Shown piece after piece: positions 2,574-19,448 of a DNA stretch of 26,333 bases; the stretch's first letter is position 1, and each line of letters opens with the position of its first letter. This DNA is from a virus: positions 1-26,333 of IMG/VR virus record IMGVR_UViG_3300022594_000025; one strand, 5' to 3'. Under the pieces are notes generated by a model. It made no database searches. It worked only from the letters and a program-made list of their open reading frames with translations, and was not told where the DNA came from. The translations under genes were made by a program, and so were the position numbers.

Positions 2574-2746
2574 TGGATTTTCTAGGTTCGTTGTATCTCG
2601 ACCGCACCAATGGCGCTTACAAGGCAATCATTGACGGCGGGCATTACGAAGTGTGTGGCTACGGCGCAACACGACAGGAAGCCCTGCTAGATGTGCTACA
2701 AGCCTATGACGAGCAGATGGAAGCCTTTGGAGAGCAGATGGTTTAG
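2573..2746 (+). CDS. Hypothetical protein, 57 aa
   Basis: Last gene of the rightward arm, coupled by TAATG. The N-terminal half suggests beta strands (SLYLDRTNGAYKAIIDGG); the C-terminal half is an acidic helix (RQEALLDVLQAYDEQMEAF). The last 4 nt overlap the 3' end of the leftward WhiB-like gene, with no terminator-like hairpin between the converging transcripts. No family recognised. Confidence 0.6.
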   Translation: MDFLGSLYLDRTNGAYKAIIDGGHYEVCGYGATRQEALLDVLQAYDEQMEAFGEQMV

Positions 2747-3126
2747 ATAGAGATTTGCTTACGCTTGCGATAGCGAGCAACTCTGACCTTAGCGTTAGCG
2801 TTGTAAGCATCCACGCAAGGCTGGCAGAAGTTATGGAATGGGTCTTTGGCTCGCTGACGGCGATGCCAAGCCCATCCCTTTTCTGTTCCGTGTTCAGGCG
2901 ATTTACGATTGGGCGCTTGATACCCAAGTGATACCGCAACAATGCGGAGTTGGTGATAGTCCAAGCCAGCCCACACGCCCCACGCCTCTTGATGTTCTAA
3001 TGCCCATTGGAGGCAATCAGAGCGTATGGGACAGCCTAGACAAATGCGTTTCGCATCTTGGATGTGGCGGTCGCTAAACATAACCTCGGTCTTACCGATA
3101 CATTTAGCAAGCCCCCAATCAGCCAT
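2743..3126 (-). CDS. WhiB-family transcriptional regulator with extra C-terminal CxxC tail
   Basis: The protein has the WhiB signature: Cys9, then C-x2-C at 29/32 and Cys38 (four ligands for a [4Fe-4S] cluster), followed by a WhiB-like turn GVWAG (50-54). WhiB proteins occur only in Actinobacteria and their phages; they bind the primary sigma factor and modulate transcription, and phage copies such as WhiB of mycobacteriophage TM4 interfere with host WhiB2. After the core comes an unusual extension: HGT at 79-81, a WHRR segment, a second C-x2-C (101/104) and a basic tail (RVARYRKRKQ) that could contact DNA. Together these resemble a WhiB fused to a small zinc-binding module. The stop overlaps the converging rightward gene; the start abuts the ssb gene, with its first base also the last of the ssb stop. 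Confidence 0.85.
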   Translation of the reverse strand: MADWGLAKCIGKTEVMFSDRHIQDAKRICLGCPIRSDCLQWALEHQEAWGVWAGLDYHQLRIVAVSLGYQAPNRKSPEHGTEKGWAWHRRQRAKDPFHNFCQPCVDAYNANAKVRVARYRKRKQISI

Positions 3127-6764: not shown

Positions 6765-6995
6765 TTACCAAGCGGAACAGCCGTACGCATCTGGTACCGG
6801 CAGTCCGTGTTGAATTGTCACTGCTACTGCTACTTGTTGCTCTGGTGTTGCCATCCAAGCGTGGGGGGCATACTTCAGACCTCCGAAGTGTTGCCAGTTC
6901 CAAGCCAGGATACCTAGACCACCCTCATACTTAGCACCTTCGTGCTTCCAGTTAGCGTGAGTCTCACACCACGCCACCTTGTTCCACTTAGCCAT
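6765..6995 (-). CDS. Rpf-like transglycosylase domain, 76 aa or longer
   Basis: The domain reads WNKVAWCETHANW with Glu11 where resuscitation-promoting factors and lysozyme-like transglycosylases carry their catalytic Glu. GGLGILAWNWQHFGG and an ATPEQQVAVA segment follow, both typical of Rpf. Such enzymes cut the glycan chain of peptidoglycan. The start is uncertain: ATG 6995 has no clear ribosome site; ATG 7046 adds 17 residues with a Pro-rich linker and a weak AGAAG; ATG 7253 would add a basic N-terminus and a hydrophobic signal-like stretch but runs through the gene at 7018-7299. It lies away from the lysis cassette. Confidence 0.65.
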   Translation of the reverse strand: MAKWNKVAWCETHANWKHEGAKYEGGLGILAWNWQHFGGLKYAPHAWMATPEQQVAVAVTIQHGLPVPDAYGCSAW

Positions 6996-7017
6996 TACAG
7001 CCGGTGGAACGAGCGGG

Positions 7018-7299
7018 CTACTTTTTACGATTGAACCAGGGGCCATCAAGGAACTTCTGTGCGGCTGCAAGTTCCTCGATGTCGTGGAGCCAAACGCTAT
7101 GTCCGGCATGATTATTTGACTTGCGAGAAGAAGCGATATAAGCAAGGCTCTCCTCAATTTGCTTGTTCTTTTCAACAAGTAGTTCAAGTAGGACTTGTGC
7201 CTGCTTAATCTGCTCACCAAGCAATTCAACTCTTTGTTCTTTAAGAAATTCATCCGAATCCCCCTCGCTAAATTCGTTAAATGCATCTTTAGTCTTCAT
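7018..7299 (-). CDS. Hypothetical coiled-coil protein, 93 aa
   Basis: Starts with a good ribosome site (GAGAAGGATTAAAG-ATG). The protein is acidic at the start (AFNEFSEGDSDEF), then has a long coiled-coil-like segment (about residues 20-60: QRVELLGEQIKQAQ and VLLELLVEKNKQIEESL), then a more polar end. Codon choice looks natural in this frame, so I treat it as the main gene over the overlapping longer frame of the Rpf-like ORF. Function unknown. Confidence 0.65.
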   Translation of the reverse strand: MKTKDAFNEFSEGDSDEFLKEQRVELLGEQIKQAQVLLELLVEKNKQIEESLAYIASSRKSNNHAGHSVWLHDIEELAAAQKFLDGPWFNRKK

Positions 7300-7429
7300 C
7301 TTTAATCCTTCTCATCGTTGGGTGTTGCACCATTGAGCGGAGTCGCTCGTTCTCTAGTGTAATGCGCTCGTTGCACTTACGCAAGTACTGGAGTTCTTTC
7401 TTTAATGCCTTTGCTTTATCTTTTTTCAT
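7289..7429 (-). CDS. Small coiled-coil protein, 46 aa
   Basis: ATG 7429 is preceded by GGAGG, and the gene overlaps the next by 11 nt. The peptide is basic at the start (KKDKAKALKKELQYL) and has heptad Leu/Ile spacing (CNERITLENERLRSMV), so it probably forms a short coiled coil. It may interact with the coiled-coil protein encoded just downstream. The upstream in-frame ATGs (7492, 7447) lie within the preceding gene. Confidence 0.6.
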   Translation of the reverse strand: MKKDKAKALKKELQYLRKCNERITLENERLRSMVQHPTMRRIKDED

Positions 7430-7541
7430 TGTCCTCCAAAGGAACATAGTTGTCTTGTTTCTTCGGGCATCGGTGACTGACTTCCTGAACACGGATAGTC
7501 GTGGCTACGGCTGCTTTACATTCTGGGCAAATCCAGGTCAT
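7416..7541 (-). CDS. Tiny zinc-ribbon-like protein, 41 aa
   Basis: Coupled by ATGA to the Ntn-hydrolase gene upstream. Contains CPEC near the N-terminus and a further Cys-Pro at HRCPKK, so it is a half or complete zinc knuckle. Its 3' end carries the ribosome site of the downstream coiled-coil gene. Function unknown. Confidence 0.55.
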   Translation of the reverse strand: MTWICPECKAAVATTIRVQEVSHRCPKKQDNYVPLEDNEKR

Positions 7542-8023
7542 TTGTTTCCTCTCACTACGGTTAATGGACCCAATGCTAGGGAGTGGTGCTCTACAGATAC
7601 CCTGAGAGCCTCTCTAACGGCCCTCTCAGGCTCTGTATTGAGTTTTGCTAGGGTAGCCAGCGAACCGAGGGCAATCTGGTTAGCGGCCCCTATAGCGGAG
7701 TATTTCTCCTTGACGTGAGCCACGCCCATATGTTCATCAATCTCGTAGATGCCCTTGCGCCCTACTACTAGAACGCTCCATTCAGCCTCCCCTGGGATGC
7801 TCTGCTCGGCTAGGTGGTCCCGCATAGCGTACGGGTCACCTAGACCGAACTTCCGAGCAAGGTTTAGCACACGGATACTGCCAGCCACGCCAACGAGATA
7901 ATCGCCAGCACGCCAGCACTTAGGCTCAGCGAGTACCTGCTTGAGTCCGGTGTCCTCAAAGGCACCTGAATCAGAACCGATAACCCACTGAGTTCCATCT
8001 GTGTATCCGACTACTACTGTCAT
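7538..8023 (-). CDS. Proteasome/HslV-like Ntn hydrolase (putative phage protease)
   Basis: 161 aa. It begins M-T-VVVGYTDG: removal of Met leaves Thr as the N-terminal nucleophile. Numbering Thr as 1, GSDS places Asp at 17, exactly as in proteasome beta subunits and HslV, and a Lys follows at 34, one residue from the canonical Lys33. GDYLVGVAGSIR matches the strand and turn after the catalytic Lys, and AIGAANQIALGSLATL resembles the conserved helix of these proteins. Proteasome-like Ntn hydrolases are known as uncharacterised genes in some phages. No ATPase partner (HslU, Mpa) is visible. The substrate is unknown; host Actinobacteria often carry a 20S proteasome, so interference or partnership is an attractive inference. 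Confidence 0.8.
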   Translation of the reverse strand: MTVVVGYTDGTQWVIGSDSGAFEDTGLKQVLAEPKCWRAGDYLVGVAGSIRVLNLARKFGLGDPYAMRDHLAEQSIPGEAEWSVLVVGRKGIYEIDEHMGVAHVKEKYSAIGAANQIALGSLATLAKLNTEPERAVREALRVSVEHHSLALGPLTVVRGNK

Positions 8024-8157
8024 TTGAACCTATCCGGTACGACTCCCCAATAGGGAACTTGTTGGTTTTCAGGCTTGAACTGAACGTAGCATCGGGAACA
8101 AAACACATTGGGGCTTACCCCGATGTTTAGCAACCACTTATGCTCGCACTTAGACAT
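8020..8157 (-). CDS. Tiny zinc-finger-like protein, 45 aa
   Basis: Sits between the ERF and Ntn-hydrolase genes with overlaps on both sides (TAATG before, ATGA after), so it is translated in series with them. It has a C-x-H (residues 4-6) and a C-x2-C (20-23, CSRC), the usual ligand arrangement of a one-zinc finger. Function unknown. Confidence 0.6.
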   Translation of the reverse strand: MSKCEHKWLLNIGVSPNVFCSRCYVQFKPENQQVPYWGVVPDRFK

Positions 8158-8729
8158 TAGCCCAACGTTACCATAACTCCGAGGATTTCAGCCTCGGTTA
8201 GTTCCCGCAGGTTAGAGATTGAACGCCCGATGGTTTCTTCCACGAACTTCTTACGCTCTTCTGCGGCTGAGTACTTCTTCTCCAGCATCGCACGCATGTT
8301 GTCGTACGGGCTAGTGGTCACCTTAGGGGTGGTCTTGGCTGGCTGGGGCTTTGACTGACTGCCACGGTTGCCATCGTCATCGTCATCCGCTACCAAGCCA
8401 AGTGCCGACATATAGGCATAACGGCGGGCGTAGGTGACGGCGCTACCCTGGCCCTGTGGGTCTTGCTTAGGCAGGTGCAGGGTCATCGTGTGGGCAATGT
8501 ACTGACCCGACTCGTGGATTAGGTAGGTGATGAGTTCATCGTTGCCAATGAACTGACTGATGGCTAGACCGTGCTTAGACAGCACAGGCCCAGCGTGTTG
8601 TACAACATCGGGGAGGGCAGCGTACTTGCTCTTAAAGAACGGGTTGTTGCTTCCCTTAGGTACCGCACTGAACTCGGCTTGTGCGCCTACCAGTGCCTTG
8701 GCTAATTCGTTGATTGCTTCACTCTGCAT
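8157..8729 (-). CDS. erf: ERF-family single-strand annealing recombinase
   Basis: 190 aa. Diagnostic ERF motifs: NPFFKSKYAALPDVV near the N-terminus, then GQGSAVTYARRYAYMSALGLVADDDDDGN, the hallmark of the family. ERF proteins form rings that anneal complementary single strands during phage recombination and circularisation. The C-terminal third (about 130-190) is a Pro/Lys linker followed by a helical domain that may contact SSB. It overlaps nothing on its upstream side but the Cas4-like gene ends exactly at its first base, indicating one operon. Confidence 0.92.
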   Translation of the reverse strand: MQSEAINELAKALVGAQAEFSAVPKGSNNPFFKSKYAALPDVVQHAGPVLSKHGLAISQFIGNDELITYLIHESGQYIAHTMTLHLPKQDPQGQGSAVTYARRYAYMSALGLVADDDDDGNRGSQSKPQPAKTTPKVTTSPYDNMRAMLEKKYSAAEERKKFVEETIGRSISNLRELTEAEILGVMVTLG

Positions 8730-9628
8730 TATTCATCTCCTTTATTTGATACAACACTATTCATAATGTAGACCTCGCCTTGTCCATCCTGCTCGCAGGT
8801 TGTACGGAAAGCACAGTACTCACATTGCCACGCTGAACCACGGGGATTCAGAGATACTACATCACCATCGTCATCCAAAGCGGTTCGCTCTGGCAGGTAA
8901 CCATTCTTAATGGACTCGTTGATGCCGGTCATACGCTTGATTTCGTTGATAGCAAGCAAGCCCCACTCGGAACGGGGAACCTCAAACTCGGCAAGGAAAC
9001 GCCGTACGCCATCAACACCCATGTTAGCGGACTTCTGCTTAGAGAGCGCCTCAAAGGTGATTGAGCCCATAATAATGGTCTGAATCTTGACGAGGGGGTT
9101 TGACTGTTCGATGCCTATAGCGTTCATACCAGCCTGAGCCACAGCCTTAGCCGCTGGGCCAGTCGGTCCCTTGTCGGTGAACGAACCACGCATACGGTTC
9201 CAGCCAACCTGCTTGTCAAACGAGTAGGTACCCATTGTCTTTAATTCGTACAAGACGTGAGTGCCACCGAAGTCGGTTGGCCCCTGCACGGCCTCAATGT
9301 CGCTGATTGGAATCAGGGCATCGCATGAACCACTAACAAAGTCGTTACCGCTGGCTACTTCGAACTCAGCGTTCGGGTAGATACGGCTAATCGCATCCTG
9401 TAGGGCTTCGTGGATAATGGTGCCGAGCCCGGTGACCCAGGCCCCTGCCTCATCCATTGGCTCTGTTGGTTCAGCCCCAAGCGCAGCGTACCCCTGCTGT
9501 CTGCCACACGCAAATGCGGAAGAGTAGCGAAGCGGTGTGCCTAGCGCCGTTGGCTTTGGTGTCTGTGACTTCTCGTGAAGTTCATTCACCAATACATTGG
9601 TAATCACTGGATATAGTGACTCTCTCAT
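8729..9628 (-). CDS. Cas4/RecB-like PD-(D/E)XK exonuclease with Fe-S cysteines
   Basis: 299 aa. Active-site series: H73, D103 in GSCDAL, E128 and K130 in YELKT, the RecB/Cas4 nuclease pattern. One cysteine near the N-terminus (C41, FACGRQ) and three near the C-terminus (C269, C272, C278) reproduce the 1+3 cysteine layout of Cas4/AddB-type iron-sulfur nucleases. It would resect DNA ends to give strands for the downstream ERF protein. No other Cas gene or CRISPR array is present, so this is a phage recombination nuclease, not a CRISPR adaptation gene. It has a strong AAGGAG ribosome site and its own promoter. Confidence 0.88.
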   Translation of the reverse strand: MRESLYPVITNVLVNELHEKSQTPKPTALGTPLRYSSAFACGRQQGYAALGAEPTEPMDEAGAWVTGLGTIIHEALQDAISRIYPNAEFEVASGNDFVSGSCDALIPISDIEAVQGPTDFGGTHVLYELKTMGTYSFDKQVGWNRMRGSFTDKGPTGPAAKAVAQAGMNAIGIEQSNPLVKIQTIIMGSITFEALSKQKSANMGVDGVRRFLAEFEVPRSEWGLLAINEIKRMTGINESIKNGYLPERTALDDDGDVVSLNPRGSAWQCEYCAFRTTCEQDGQGEVYIMNSVVSNKGDE

Positions 9629-10557: not shown

Positions 10558-11055
10558 TCAGTTTGCCTGGCATACTCGTGCGATTTGTGCAGGAGTTCGG
10601 GTGTAGAGGTCGGGCCAGGTTAGGGCATCCGTAAAGCCTGAGAACATAAGGCCAGCAGCCACTAAACCGCTGCAAATCCAGGTGTTTGCCTTACGCAGAC
10701 AAATGCTGTTAGGCAAAAGAATATCAAGGGCGCAAGACAGGATGCTAATAAAGCCGTAAGAAAAGCCAATTTGGAACCTAATAAATTTTAGGAACTCGGC
10801 TTGATTTGCACCCTGAGGTAGTGCTAGAATTTCGTAATTTCCACCCGGAGCGATATCGTCAAGGTACTTGTCGTTCGTCACTCCCTTAGGCTCGGCCTGA
10901 ATTACAAGCCAGTTACCTGAGGAGTCCTGTCGGTCCAGAACTGCCACGTGGTTCCACTTAGAGTACTTCCCGTCACCATCGAAGTGTTGGGCAACTCGAA
11001 TGGCTTTCCCAATAATTCCTGTCGTTCTACAAAATACCAAATCACCGGCTTGCAT
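10558..11055 (-). CDS. Permuted NlpC/P60-like (YiiX/C92-type) peptidase
   Basis: 165 aa. GDLVF at residues 4-8, WNHVAVL with His36, E55 after a hydrophobic strand, and a late ICSGLV with Cys128 form the His...Glu...Cys order of circularly permuted NlpC/P60 papain-like enzymes. Such enzymes cleave amide bonds in cell-wall peptides or lipids. A hydrophobic segment before the Cys (GFISILSCALDILL) may be the domain core or a membrane contact. It overlaps the membrane-protein gene by 14 nt in the lysis cassette, so a lytic or accessory wall-hydrolase role is likely. Confidence 0.7.
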   Translation of the reverse strand: MQAGDLVFCRTTGIIGKAIRVAQHFDGDGKYSKWNHVAVLDRQDSSGNWLVIQAEPKGVTNDKYLDDIAPGGNYEILALPQGANQAEFLKFIRFQIGFSYGFISILSCALDILLPNSICLRKANTWICSGLVAAGLMFSGFTDALTWPDLYTRTPAQIARVCQAN

Positions 11056-11434: not shown

Positions 11435-11696
11435 CGTATTCCAATTCAGTTAGGTGGCGCTCAAGGTCCTTGCGAACTCGCTTGATTGCTTTTGCGTTCT
11501 TCTTTTCAGCAGCGGCGATAGCCACTACTGCTGCCTCTATTCGGTCAACGGCATCTCGCATGCTTGACCCGTGGTTCGGTGACATTTCCGCCTTAAAGTG
11601 TTTCCAGACAATACGACCAACAAAGAAAACTACGGGGTAGATGAAAACTGAGATTACGTTTGCCCAATTCGCAATGTCCCCGATATTGGCAAGCAT
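11403..11696 (-). CDS. Small membrane protein with coiled-coil tail, holin candidate
   Basis: 97 aa. One N-terminal transmembrane helix (about residues 10-30, WANVISVFIYPVVFFVGRIV), then NHGSSMRDAVDRIEAAV and a long charged coiled coil. The HGSS-RDAVDRIE segment is a pattern I know from small membrane proteins beside endolysin genes in actinophages. Its start abuts the endolysin stop at 11696 in coupled fashion, which supports a lysis role. Confidence 0.65.
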   Translation of the reverse strand: MLANIGDIANWANVISVFIYPVVFFVGRIVWKHFKAEMSPNHGSSMRDAVDRIEAAVVAIAAAEKKNAKAIKRVRKDLERHLTELEYVEQVQEPHNR

Positions 11697-12214
11697 TATG
11701 CCGCCGGTACTGGTTTAGCGGGGCGAACCCGTGCTTGGTTAAGACGAAGGAAAGTCTGTGGAGTGCGACCATCTACCGGTACGCCCTTGTCGGGAACCAG
11801 TTGTGGGGCATTGACCCAGCAGTAAATAGCGCCATTGTTGTCACCGTAGGAGACAGTCATAATGTCGTGACCGTGGACCTCGATAACCAAAGCAACATGC
11901 TCGCCAGTGCTACCACCGTAAACCACCAAGTCACCAGGCTGAACCTGGTCAATGGTGACGTGGCGGTTGTTAGCCAGCAAGGTGCCGGTGTAGCCGGTGT
12001 GGTTGTAGCCACAGTGGTTGGGGTCGCCCAGTCCTGAGAGCCACGCCAGCAGGGTTACAAAGCCTGAGCAGTCGGTATTCAATGGGAAGTGAAGAGGCCA
12101 CTGTCCGATTGCTTCCATACGCTTAGCACCCTGGGTGTAAGTTTCTTGGGCTGACTTGCCGTGCTTGACGAAGTAGTGAGCCCAATTTACGAGGTCTTGT
12201 GCAGTTGTAGTCAT
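11696..12214 (-). CDS. Endolysin, NlpC/P60-type
   Basis: 172 aa. LNTDCSGFVTLLAWLSGLG with Cys49, PGDLVVYGG, then TGEHVALVIE with His106, is the order and spacing of NlpC/P60 cysteine peptidases, which cut peptide links in peptidoglycan. A tyrosine-rich segment follows and the protein ends in a basic/proline tail (RVRPAKPVPAA) that may help wall binding. No signal peptide, so release would rely on the neighbouring membrane proteins. Confidence 0.85.
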   Translation of the reverse strand: MTTTAQDLVNWAHYFVKHGKSAQETYTQGAKRMEAIGQWPLHFPLNTDCSGFVTLLAWLSGLGDPNHCGYNHTGYTGTLLANNRHVTIDQVQPGDLVVYGGSTGEHVALVIEVHGHDIMTVSYGDNNGAIYCWVNAPQLVPDKGVPVDGRTPQTFLRLNQARVRPAKPVPAA

Positions 12215-16613: not shown

Positions 16614-19448
16614 TTAGTTGAGTGTGGCGAAGAAGTTGTAAACGGTGCTTGCTGGAGTGTTTGCACCTACCGCCGCTGGCGTGGTATTTAGACCTGTACC
16701 CCAAGAACTTGTCCGACCATTAAGAACGCCTGCGGCATTAGTAGTGTTAAAGTTCATTAGTGTTGCTACAGCGTTCGGCGAGCCGGTTCCGTTTGCGTCA
16801 CCGGCTATTACGATGTTTGGTGCAGTAGTGCTACCTGTTCCAATTTGTATTACCGCAAAATAATCCGTGTCAGCAGACAGGGCCAACGAACCAACTGCAG
16901 TTAGAGTGAACGTGTTATATCCCGTAGCGGAAACACTTGTACCTAGTGAGGCATAGCCAAGGACTGCGCCAGCGGCGCTGTAAAGAGAAATATAAGAGTT
17001 TGCTAATGACGTGCCACCACCGCTGGAAGTCATAAATCCAATAGTCGTTACGGTTGCGGCTGTGGTCATGTGAATACGAGTTGCGTAGGCTACGCCTTTA
17101 GTTGGCGGAAATGTTGCAGCGTTCATAAACGCAGCAGGGTCAAATGTCCAAGCCTTGACACCGTGTGCTGAGGGGAAGACTGTGGCTGGCGTTATGCCTA
17201 AAGTTCCTCTAGCACCAGAGGCAGTGTTTGAGGCTGTTCCACCGCTTGCAATTTGCACAATCCCACCGAGCGTTGAACTGTTCATTGCGGCTCGTTCAGT
17301 CCAAACACCAGCGTTATAGACAAACGTTTTTGAAGCAAGAGAACCAATTGTCCAGTTTATTGCGCCGGAGGCAACACCTGTGCTTGATTGGTAAGTGATT
17401 GTGTCTGATAAACCACCACGGCTAATAACCGTGCTAATCCCTGAACCGGAAACGATTGTGTTTGTCGTTCCGTTAGGCGGTGCGCTAGGCAACGTGATAG
17501 TCAAAGAGGTGACTGTGGTTATTGAAGTTTCATTAGCGGCGGCAGTTCCACTTGTTGAGTAGAACACCGGCGCAGATGAGCCTGAACTTGGCGTGGAGTA
17601 TTGAAGGCCAGTGGCTCCGGAGTTTACGGTCAGAACCTGACCAGCGGTTCCTAAGCCCAGGCGTGAAACAGTGCTAGAGCCAGTTCCAACAATAAGGTCA
17701 CCAGCAGTGGTGACTGTCGAAAGAGGAATTTTGGTTGTGTCGCTAGGTGCGGTGGTAGTAACGGAAGTAACCCGACCCTTTGAATCGGTGGTCACAATAG
17801 GAACTGCCGTGGCCGAGCCATAGGTGCCAGCGGTACCAGCAGCGGCCAAAGTTGGGTTGGGGTAGGAACCAGTTAAGTCACCACCGGCAGTACCTGATGG
17901 CGGCAACGAAGTAGGCAAAGAGGTGTAGGTTAGGCCCGTTGCACCTGAGTTAACAGATAGAACCTGGTTAGCAGTTCCAATAGTGCTGAGCCCAGTACCA
18001 CCGTTGGCGGTTTGAACAACATCAACCAAGTGGTCTGCGCCGTTGGTTGCAACCATGTACCACTGCGAACCGTTGTAGTTCACGAACGAGTAAGCCCCAC
18101 CAGCAGAGACAGAATAGGTAGTTACACCAGAACCGTTACCAATAGGAACCATTGATGGGGTAAAACTTAGAGTCACCGCAACGGAGGCTTTGTTGATGAC
18201 GGTCCAAGTAGAGCCGTCAATCGGGCCAGATGGGGCAGTAAGAGTTTGACTTGCCGTAGAGCCCGAGAAAATGGTTGTCTCGTTACGGCCTACTGTTGTT
18301 GAAGCAGTGCGAAGCGAGAGGTGCGACGAGATGGTTGTAGTCCAAGTGCCAGGCGTTCCAGCAGTTGTGCAGACCCAAACGGTTCCACTCTGGTCGACTA
18401 CAAAGTCGCCTACAGCAAAGGTGCCGGTAGTAGGAGCACCAGAAGTGGTACCACCGACATAACGAGTAGCCGCTGTGGCACCGGTAAGGCCCATTGGCAA
18501 ACCATTGGTTCCGCCACCACCCGTGATAGTCGTGGGGGTCACATTTGTAATGCGACCATAAGCATCCGTGGTAATAACAGGAACGGTGGTAGCCGAGCCG
18601 TAAGTACCAGCGGTACCAGTAGTGTTTAGCCCAATGTTGGCAGCGGTAGAGGTACCGGAGTTGGTGATTGGGGCGGTAACTGAAACAACACCGGAAGAGC
18701 CGTTAGTTCCATTAGTTCCGTTGGTACCATCAGCACCCTTAGGAATAGTAAAGTTAAGTACAGCAGCAGAACTTGTACCGGAGTTAGTTACAGAAGCAGA
18801 CGTACCAGCCGCACCGGTGGTTGTAGAACCAACTGCGACAGTTGCGGCAGTTCCGTTGAGCCCGTTTGTGCCATTAGTACCATCGGTACCGGCAGGACCC
18901 TGTGGGCCTTGTGCGCCCTGGGGAACGGTGAAATTGAATACTGCGGCGGATGAGGTACCAGAGTTTGTAACGCTGGCAGAGGTTCCAGCGGCTCCTGTGG
19001 TGGTTGTACCCACAGCAACCGTAGCAGCCGCTCCTGGGGTGCCTGGAACGCCCTGAGGGCCTTGTGGGCCTGTAGCACCAGTGGGACCAGCAGGACCGGT
19101 AGGACCAGCAGGACCGGTGGTAAGAATTAAAGAGTCATCGTAAGACCAATACGATTGTGCGCTAGGCGAACCTACTGGGTAGGTGACCTGAACGTAATAG
19201 TCCGTAACAGCGCCAACGGCTAGTTCCCATTGTCCAGGCCCACCAAATTGGGTACCAGTTGTTACAGGGCCGTAGTAGTCAGTGCCAAGGAGGAGTGTGC
19301 CATCAGGGTTAGAGCCACCAGTCGTGGGTGGGGCCTGACCAGCGGAGGGAGCACCTGCTGGGAATAGGGATGCCTTGTAGGCATAGACGTTTGCGCCATT
19401 AAGAAAGCCAGAAGGGCCAGCAACTACACCGGTGAGAACAAGAGCCAT
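16614..19448 (-). CDS. Collagen-repeat tail fibre, 944 aa
   Basis: Residues 112-139 contain Gly-x-y collagen repeats (GPAGPTGPAGPTG), with further Gly-x-y runs at about 178-199 and 238-250. Two copies of a 36-residue beta unit (about 141-176 and 201-236) are nearly identical in protein but use different codons. Later come paired GTYGSAT.VP..TTD..GR.T.VT segments and QVL.VNSGATGL.Y segments, typical shaft repeats of trimeric fibres, and a C-terminal beta-sandwich-like tip (about 760-944) likely to contact the host surface. The N-terminal 100 residues should anchor it to the virion. Confidence 0.85.
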   Translation of the reverse strand: MALVLTGVVAGPSGFLNGANVYAYKASLFPAGAPSAGQAPPTTGGSNPDGTLLLGTDYYGPVTTGTQFGGPGQWELAVGAVTDYYVQVTYPVGSPSAQSYWSYDDSLILTTGPAGPTGPAGPTGATGPQGPQGVPGTPGAAATVAVGTTTTGAAGTSASVTNSGTSSAAVFNFTVPQGAQGPQGPAGTDGTNGTNGLNGTAATVAVGSTTTGAAGTSASVTNSGTSSAAVLNFTIPKGADGTNGTNGTNGSSGVVSVTAPITNSGTSTAANIGLNTTGTAGTYGSATTVPVITTDAYGRITNVTPTTITGGGGTNGLPMGLTGATAATRYVGGTTSGAPTTGTFAVGDFVVDQSGTVWVCTTAGTPGTWTTTISSHLSLRTASTTVGRNETTIFSGSTASQTLTAPSGPIDGSTWTVINKASVAVTLSFTPSMVPIGNGSGVTTYSVSAGGAYSFVNYNGSQWYMVATNGADHLVDVVQTANGGTGLSTIGTANQVLSVNSGATGLTYTSLPTSLPPSGTAGGDLTGSYPNPTLAAAGTAGTYGSATAVPIVTTDSKGRVTSVTTTAPSDTTKIPLSTVTTAGDLIVGTGSSTVSRLGLGTAGQVLTVNSGATGLQYSTPSSGSSAPVFYSTSGTAAANETSITTVTSLTITLPSAPPNGTTNTIVSGSGISTVISRGGLSDTITYQSSTGVASGAINWTIGSLASKTFVYNAGVWTERAAMNSSTLGGIVQIASGGTASNTASGARGTLGITPATVFPSAHGVKAWTFDPAAFMNAATFPPTKGVAYATRIHMTTAATVTTIGFMTSSGGGTSLANSYISLYSAAGAVLGYASLGTSVSATGYNTFTLTAVGSLALSADTDYFAVIQIGTGSTTAPNIVIAGDANGTGSPNAVATLMNFNTTNAAGVLNGRTSSWGTGLNTTPAAVGANTPASTVYNFFATLN

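Follow-up and report, generated by a model that had tools for sequence, protein, structure and literature searches.

A compact HslV/proteasome-like Ntn hydrolase gene in the recombination module of a WhiB-encoding phage

Proteasome-like proteins encoded by phages raise the question of how they act when no unfoldase is encoded with them. Such a protein could be a stand-alone peptidase, an enzyme for one defined substrate, a subunit that joins the host proteasome or a homolog retained for binding only. This question was addressed for one gene in a viral DNA stretch of 26,333 nucleotides (IMG/VR record IMGVR_UViG_3300022594_000025), which is referred to as the window. Phage homologs of HslV and of proteasome subunits are an established kind of protein, and the window protein is an ordinary compact member. 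Fuchs, Alva and Lupas described the phage-associated proteasome homologs PPH and AAH in 2021 (PMC8665760). Further HslV/proteasome homologs have been annotated in a Salmonella jumbo phage (PMC7823757), in Alteromonas phage V22 (PMC7289586) and in Citromicrobium phage RXM (PMC8953757), and HslV-family annotations are present in records of Phapecoctavirus, phages of E. coli. Biochemical evidence or a function for any phage homolog was not found in the literature searched.

Gene structure and family membership

A preliminary description of the DNA had placed an HslV/proteasome-like hydrolase at 7538-8023. An open reading frame with exactly these boundaries was confirmed and assigned to the minus strand, which had been left unstated (Table 1). 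The encoded product starts with MTVVVGYTDGTQWVIGSDSGAFEDTGLKQVLAEPKCWRAGDYLVGVAGSIRV... and no alternative in-frame start occurs 5' of the ATG before a stop codon. Thus, the threonine is residue 2 of the protein. With the methionine removed, the predicted catalytic residues are numbered Thr1, Asp17 and Lys34, as had been proposed. The gene is part of a dense minus-strand gene run and shows 4-base ATGA overlaps at both ends.

Table 1. Positions of the peptidase gene, its predicted catalytic codons and selected other genes in the window.
Feature	Position	Strand	Remarks
HslV/proteasome-like Ntn peptidase gene	7538..8023	-	161 aa, ATG to TGA; assigned by profile and predicted fold
Thr1 (residue 2), codon ACA	8018..8020	-	expected nucleophile once Met is removed
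Asp17 (residue 18), codon GAT	7970..7972	-	D in 156/156 distinct homologs
Lys34 (residue 35), codon AAG	7919..7921	-	aligned counterpart of Lys33 in HslV and in 20S beta
45-aa Cys-rich protein (MSKCEHKW...FCSRCYVQF...)	8020..8157	-	directly upstream; ATGA overlap with peptidase start
41-aa zinc-ribbon-like ORF (MTWICPECK...)	7416..7541	-	overlaps peptidase stop; zinc-ribbon matches weak, under Pfam cut-offs
ERF ssDNA-annealing recombinase	8157..8729	-	PHROG 155 8e-45, Pfam ERF 4e-23; upstream neighbor
Cas4/PD-(D/E)XK-like nuclease	8729..9628	-	PHROG 1706 1e-11, PHROG 1990 7e-4
Transglycosylase (Rpf-type)	6765..7286	-	PF06737 3e-12; downstream of peptidase
WhiB-like regulator	2743..3126	-	PF02467 1.7e-14; actinobacterial-host marker

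The window protein matches PHROG 1040 ("peptidase HslV family") at 6.4e-8 over residues 1-141, and this was the sole family matched by its close relatives (13 of 13 scanned). Against a non-circular profile, built from 16 other phage homologs without the window protein and its close relative, it scored 69.9 bits, whereas 2000 shuffles of the same residues reached at most 4.3 bits. The family resemblance is therefore far beyond chance. When PDB sequences were searched with a family profile of 18 sequences, HslV (5e-22) and BPH (3.5e-17) were retrieved together with 20S beta subunits. A profile of the window subfamily only still retrieved HslV (1.9e-5) and BPH (9.7e-5), but not PrcB at E<=1. The single window sequence gave chance matches only. 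The subfamily shares 16-30% identity with the other branches of the phage family.

General and specific models delimit the assignment further. In the Pfam scan the window protein had no match to PF00227, the cut-off of which is exceeded by its relatives from Planktophila phage E7 and Tunturi_5; hits to Pfam RMI2 (0.018) and NCBIfam EutB (0.029) were far under the cut-offs and were taken as chance. It was not matched by the models for HslV proper (TIGR03692 and NF003964), on which phage relatives reach 12-30 bits compared to cut-offs of 137-158, nor by the model for the bacterial 20S beta subunit PrcB (TIGR03690). A PF00227 protein that could serve as a PrcA partner was not found in the window. 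The protein is neither HslV proper, as it stays under the cut-offs and HslU was not found with it, nor PrcB.

Predicted fold and active site

Based on an alignment of 70 sequences, AlphaFold produced a confident model of the window protein (pLDDT 95.5, pTM 0.90) with a four-layer Ntn-hydrolase fold. The N-terminal part contains strands at residues 3-8, 12-17, 20-22, 28-30, 36-39 and 42-47, followed by a first pair of helices (50-58 and 64-73), central strands at 83-88, 91-96, 101-104 and 108-112, a second part with helices 115-127 and 132-146, and a final strand at 155-160. The predicted order of strands and helices is that of an Ntn hydrolase. Foldseek searches of the PDB gave BPH (2.5e-11, TM 0.81; PDB 5ovs, 5ovu) and HslV (E about 1e-11, TM about 0.8) as top matches and the M. 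tuberculosis 20S beta subunit at about 1e-8, all with a probability of 1.00. Viral matches included proteins called HslV or proteasome beta as well as unnamed Gordonia phage proteins.

In the model, Thr2 immediately precedes strand 1, Asp18 directly follows strand 2, and Lys35 immediately precedes strand 36-39. Judged by these strand ends, the three residues occupy the places expected for a proteasome-like triad, which points against the separation predicted if the earlier assignment were wrong. Loss of the triad in homologs, which would likewise have spoken against it, was not seen when 156 distinct phage homologs were aligned. In 155 of these the equivalent of Thr1 is a threonine and in one it is a serine, and the aspartate and the equivalent of Lys33 are present in all 156. 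The description of the lysine as displaced did not hold. Counted from the threonine as residue 1, it is found at position 29, 32, 33, 34, 35 or 36 in 3, 1, 55, 66, 28 and 3 sequences, respectively. As position 34 is the commonest, the apparent displacement reflects an indel, i.e. variation in loop length. In Phapecoctavirus and related phages (L011, L012, L020 and L021) the first hairpin is shortened, so that the aligned aspartate is at about 13 and not at 17; this branch also has a long C-terminal tail.

The serine of the GSG motif supports the active site in proteasomes. In the window subfamily it is replaced by alanine in 12 of 14 distinct aligned sequences and by glycine in the other two, and across the wider phage set the same position is mostly occupied by Cys, Ser, Thr or Ala. 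Judging from these alignments, the altered motif is a real departure of the subfamily. Within the subfamily the Thr, Asp and Lys residues are invariant, and so are His145 and Trp81-Ser82. An equally invariant DSGAFED motif was left out as evidence, because most subfamily relatives had been retrieved by means of this motif.

Comparison with known systems places the protein on the HslV/BPH side (group I). HslV (ClpQ; PDB 1m4y), the best profile match among solved structures, shares Thr1, Asp17 and the lysine with it, but differs in the position of this lysine, in its association with HslU and in matching the NCBIfam HslV models. BPH is the closest by Foldseek and shares about 20% identity; its chains are longer (about 200 amino acids) and carry a longer acidic pore loop. 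Like PPH and AAH, the window protein is phage-borne, compact and of group I, with no AAA+ partner found. By its description PPH has about 140 amino acids and lacks helix H2, whereas a short H2-like helix (64-73) is predicted for the window protein. Ring packing could differ, since this second helix is short. Other members of PHROG 1040, among them those of Phapecoctavirus, phi92, Tunturi_5 and Moorella MTATph1, have the same MT start, Asp17 and lysine, and for these a dedicated HslU is likewise unreported. The window subfamily differs from them by a shorter segment between helix 1 and the next strand and by a GAA/GAG-type motif instead of GSG/GCG.

Genomic context, relatives and host

A second contig carries a nearly identical gene, with DNA of the region about 99.9% identical. 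Further relatives in viral contigs share 71%, about 47-53% and 37-40% identity. Comparison of the window gene with that of contig L002 gave a pN/pS of about 0.2 at saturated synonymous sites, and Jukes-Cantor dN/dS values of other close pairs were 0.02-0.14. Most contigs of the inner clade share the gene order Cas4-like, ERF, Cys-rich 45-mer, peptidase, MazG-like ORF, HJR, SSB and WhiB. The peptidase gene thus belongs to a recombination module in phages that carry WhiB, and purifying selection together with conserved synteny indicates that it is functional. The Cys-rich 45-mer, located between ERF and peptidase, is 38-77% identical across the inner-clade contigs. It was not found in the relatives with 37-40% identity and is therefore no obligatory partner. 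Even in contigs in which it is set apart from the peptidase by a gap, it still adjoins ERF.

Other genes of the window were also noted. A tail-type protein of 944 amino acids with repeated blocks and collagen-like GPAGPTGP stretches is encoded at 16614-19448 (minus strand). An NlpC/P60-type hydrolase is encoded at 11696-12214 and, as judged by eye, possibly a second one at 10558-11055 (both minus strand); with the Rpf-type transglycosylase, the phage thus encodes several cell-wall enzymes. No defence families were found in a PADLOC scan.

The host of the window phage is probably an actinobacterium, as had been suggested before. This is supported by the WhiB gene, which the window shares with several relatives and which was found among 14 control genomes in Corynebacterium glutamicum only; in published work WhiB is taken to indicate an actinophage (PMC10202952, PMC6802176). 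Genome scans with the peptidase gave no match, and scans with the neighboring phosphoesterase hit two contigs only (Blastopirellula and Nevskia bins, 52% identity), which name no host.

Separate branches of the peptidase are carried by other WhiB-carrying phages, namely Planktophila phage E7, DSL-LC01 and Microbacterium phage Pumpernickel, in the last of these as gene 135. Planktophila phage E7 (OX376640) has been cultured (PMC10202952). In the records of Planktophila phages E7 and F5 (OX376640 and OX376641; L010) the HslV-like gene is present without annotation, and 144 viral contig stretches were noted to encode relatives. The large Actinomycetia phage DSL-LC01 from Dishui Lake has three WhiB genes, one of which lies directly downstream of the HslV-like gene (L006, 6001-6954). 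The HslV-like genes of E7/F5, DSL-LC01 and Pumpernickel encode the same triad, and in E7 the lysine is also at position 34, but they are only 21-27% identical to the window gene and lie in other gene neighborhoods. In Aeromonas phage 4L372D two HslV-like genes that belong to different branches lie in tandem (L018, 1501-2954). Both encode the Thr, Asp and Lys residues, and the products might form a hetero-oligomeric pair.

The absence of an ATPase partner, noted before, was borne out by these data. HslU was not found in the window, no AAA_2 (Clp-type) domain was over the cut-off in ten related records, and the longer contigs of the window lineage likewise yielded no classic AAA domain over the cut-off. 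Since these contigs may not cover whole genomes, they could lack a partner gene that the phages do encode. AAA proteins do occur in other actinophages that carry the peptidase. Two of them were considered as partners and rejected: by eye, the protein of the Planktophila phage reads as a RecA/RepA-like helicase and that of L022 as MoxR/CbbQ-like, and neither was found in the window lineage. The gene upstream of the peptidase in Tunturi_5, phAPEC8, phi92 and others showed no resemblance, by eye, to a second proteasome subunit. Likewise, Fuchs et al. found no AAA+ interactor that co-occurs with the novel proteasome homologs (PMC8665760).

Possible activity and alternative explanations

The window gene most likely encodes a compact phage-borne proteasome-like Ntn hydrolase of the HslV/BPH branch (group I), which is predicted to be a threonine peptidase without a phage unfoldase. 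A methionine aminopeptidase of the host would expose Thr1, which together with Asp17 and Lys34 would form an N-terminal threonine nucleophile. The subunits may assemble to an HslV/BPH-like ring or double ring; an unfoldase, if any, would be provided by the host. The earlier suggestion of a stand-alone or activator-independent enzyme is thus plausible. In the phase of infection devoted to DNA metabolism, the peptidase could cut unfolded, small or specifically delivered proteins, to support host takeover or the quality control of the phage's own proteins.

It is highly improbable that the protein joins a host 20S proteasome as an inhibitor, a replacement subunit or a decoy, the last of which had been among the earlier suggestions. 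Many actinobacteria possess a 20S proteasome, and the Foldseek match to the M. tuberculosis subunit shows a fold relationship with PrcB. However, HslV and BPH and not PrcB are the nearest relatives in the subfamily profile search, which makes an HslV/BPH-like stand-alone threonine peptidase likelier than a 20S decoy. The protein is also shorter than PrcB chains (161 compared to 234-291 amino acids), its catalytic residues are kept and not lost, and homologs occur in phages of E. coli, which is not known to have a 20S proteasome.

The replacement of the GSG serine by alanine or glycine could point to a catalytically dead or decaying homolog that is retained for binding only. This is quite improbable, as the Thr/Asp/Lys triad does not vary within the subfamily and is preserved family-wide, and dN/dS is low. 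The same replacement, and the lack of an unfoldase in the window and in the longer lineage contigs, would also fit a monomeric Ntn hydrolase or transpeptidase with one defined substrate, such as a connectase-like ligase or an amidase. Among proteasome homologs, connectase ligates proteins as a monomer (PMC8665760). This explanation is rather unlikely: connectase lacks the first helix pair (PMC8665760), whereas helices of both pairs are predicted for the window protein, and sequence and fold are closest to the ring-forming HslV and BPH. The subfamily, with its kept triad, changed GSG serine and short second helix, might instead represent a phage-specific Ntn enzyme and not a general ring protease. 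Such a single-substrate protease or protein ligase would target a DNA-metabolism protein of host or phage, perhaps aided by the upstream Cys-rich 45-mer; this, too, is considered unlikely.

Within the known phage homologs of HslV and the proteasome, the compact subfamily with an altered GSG motif and the carriage of the gene by WhiB-encoding actinophages are new. Fuchs et al. could find no Actinobacteria-specific phage encoding AAH (PMC8665760). Several WhiB-encoding actinophages are shown to carry the peptidase gene, be it of the AAH, the PPH or a separate group, and some of these are cultured (Planktophila phages E7 and F5, and Pumpernickel). Such cultured phage systems make the role of phage proteasome homologs experimentally approachable.
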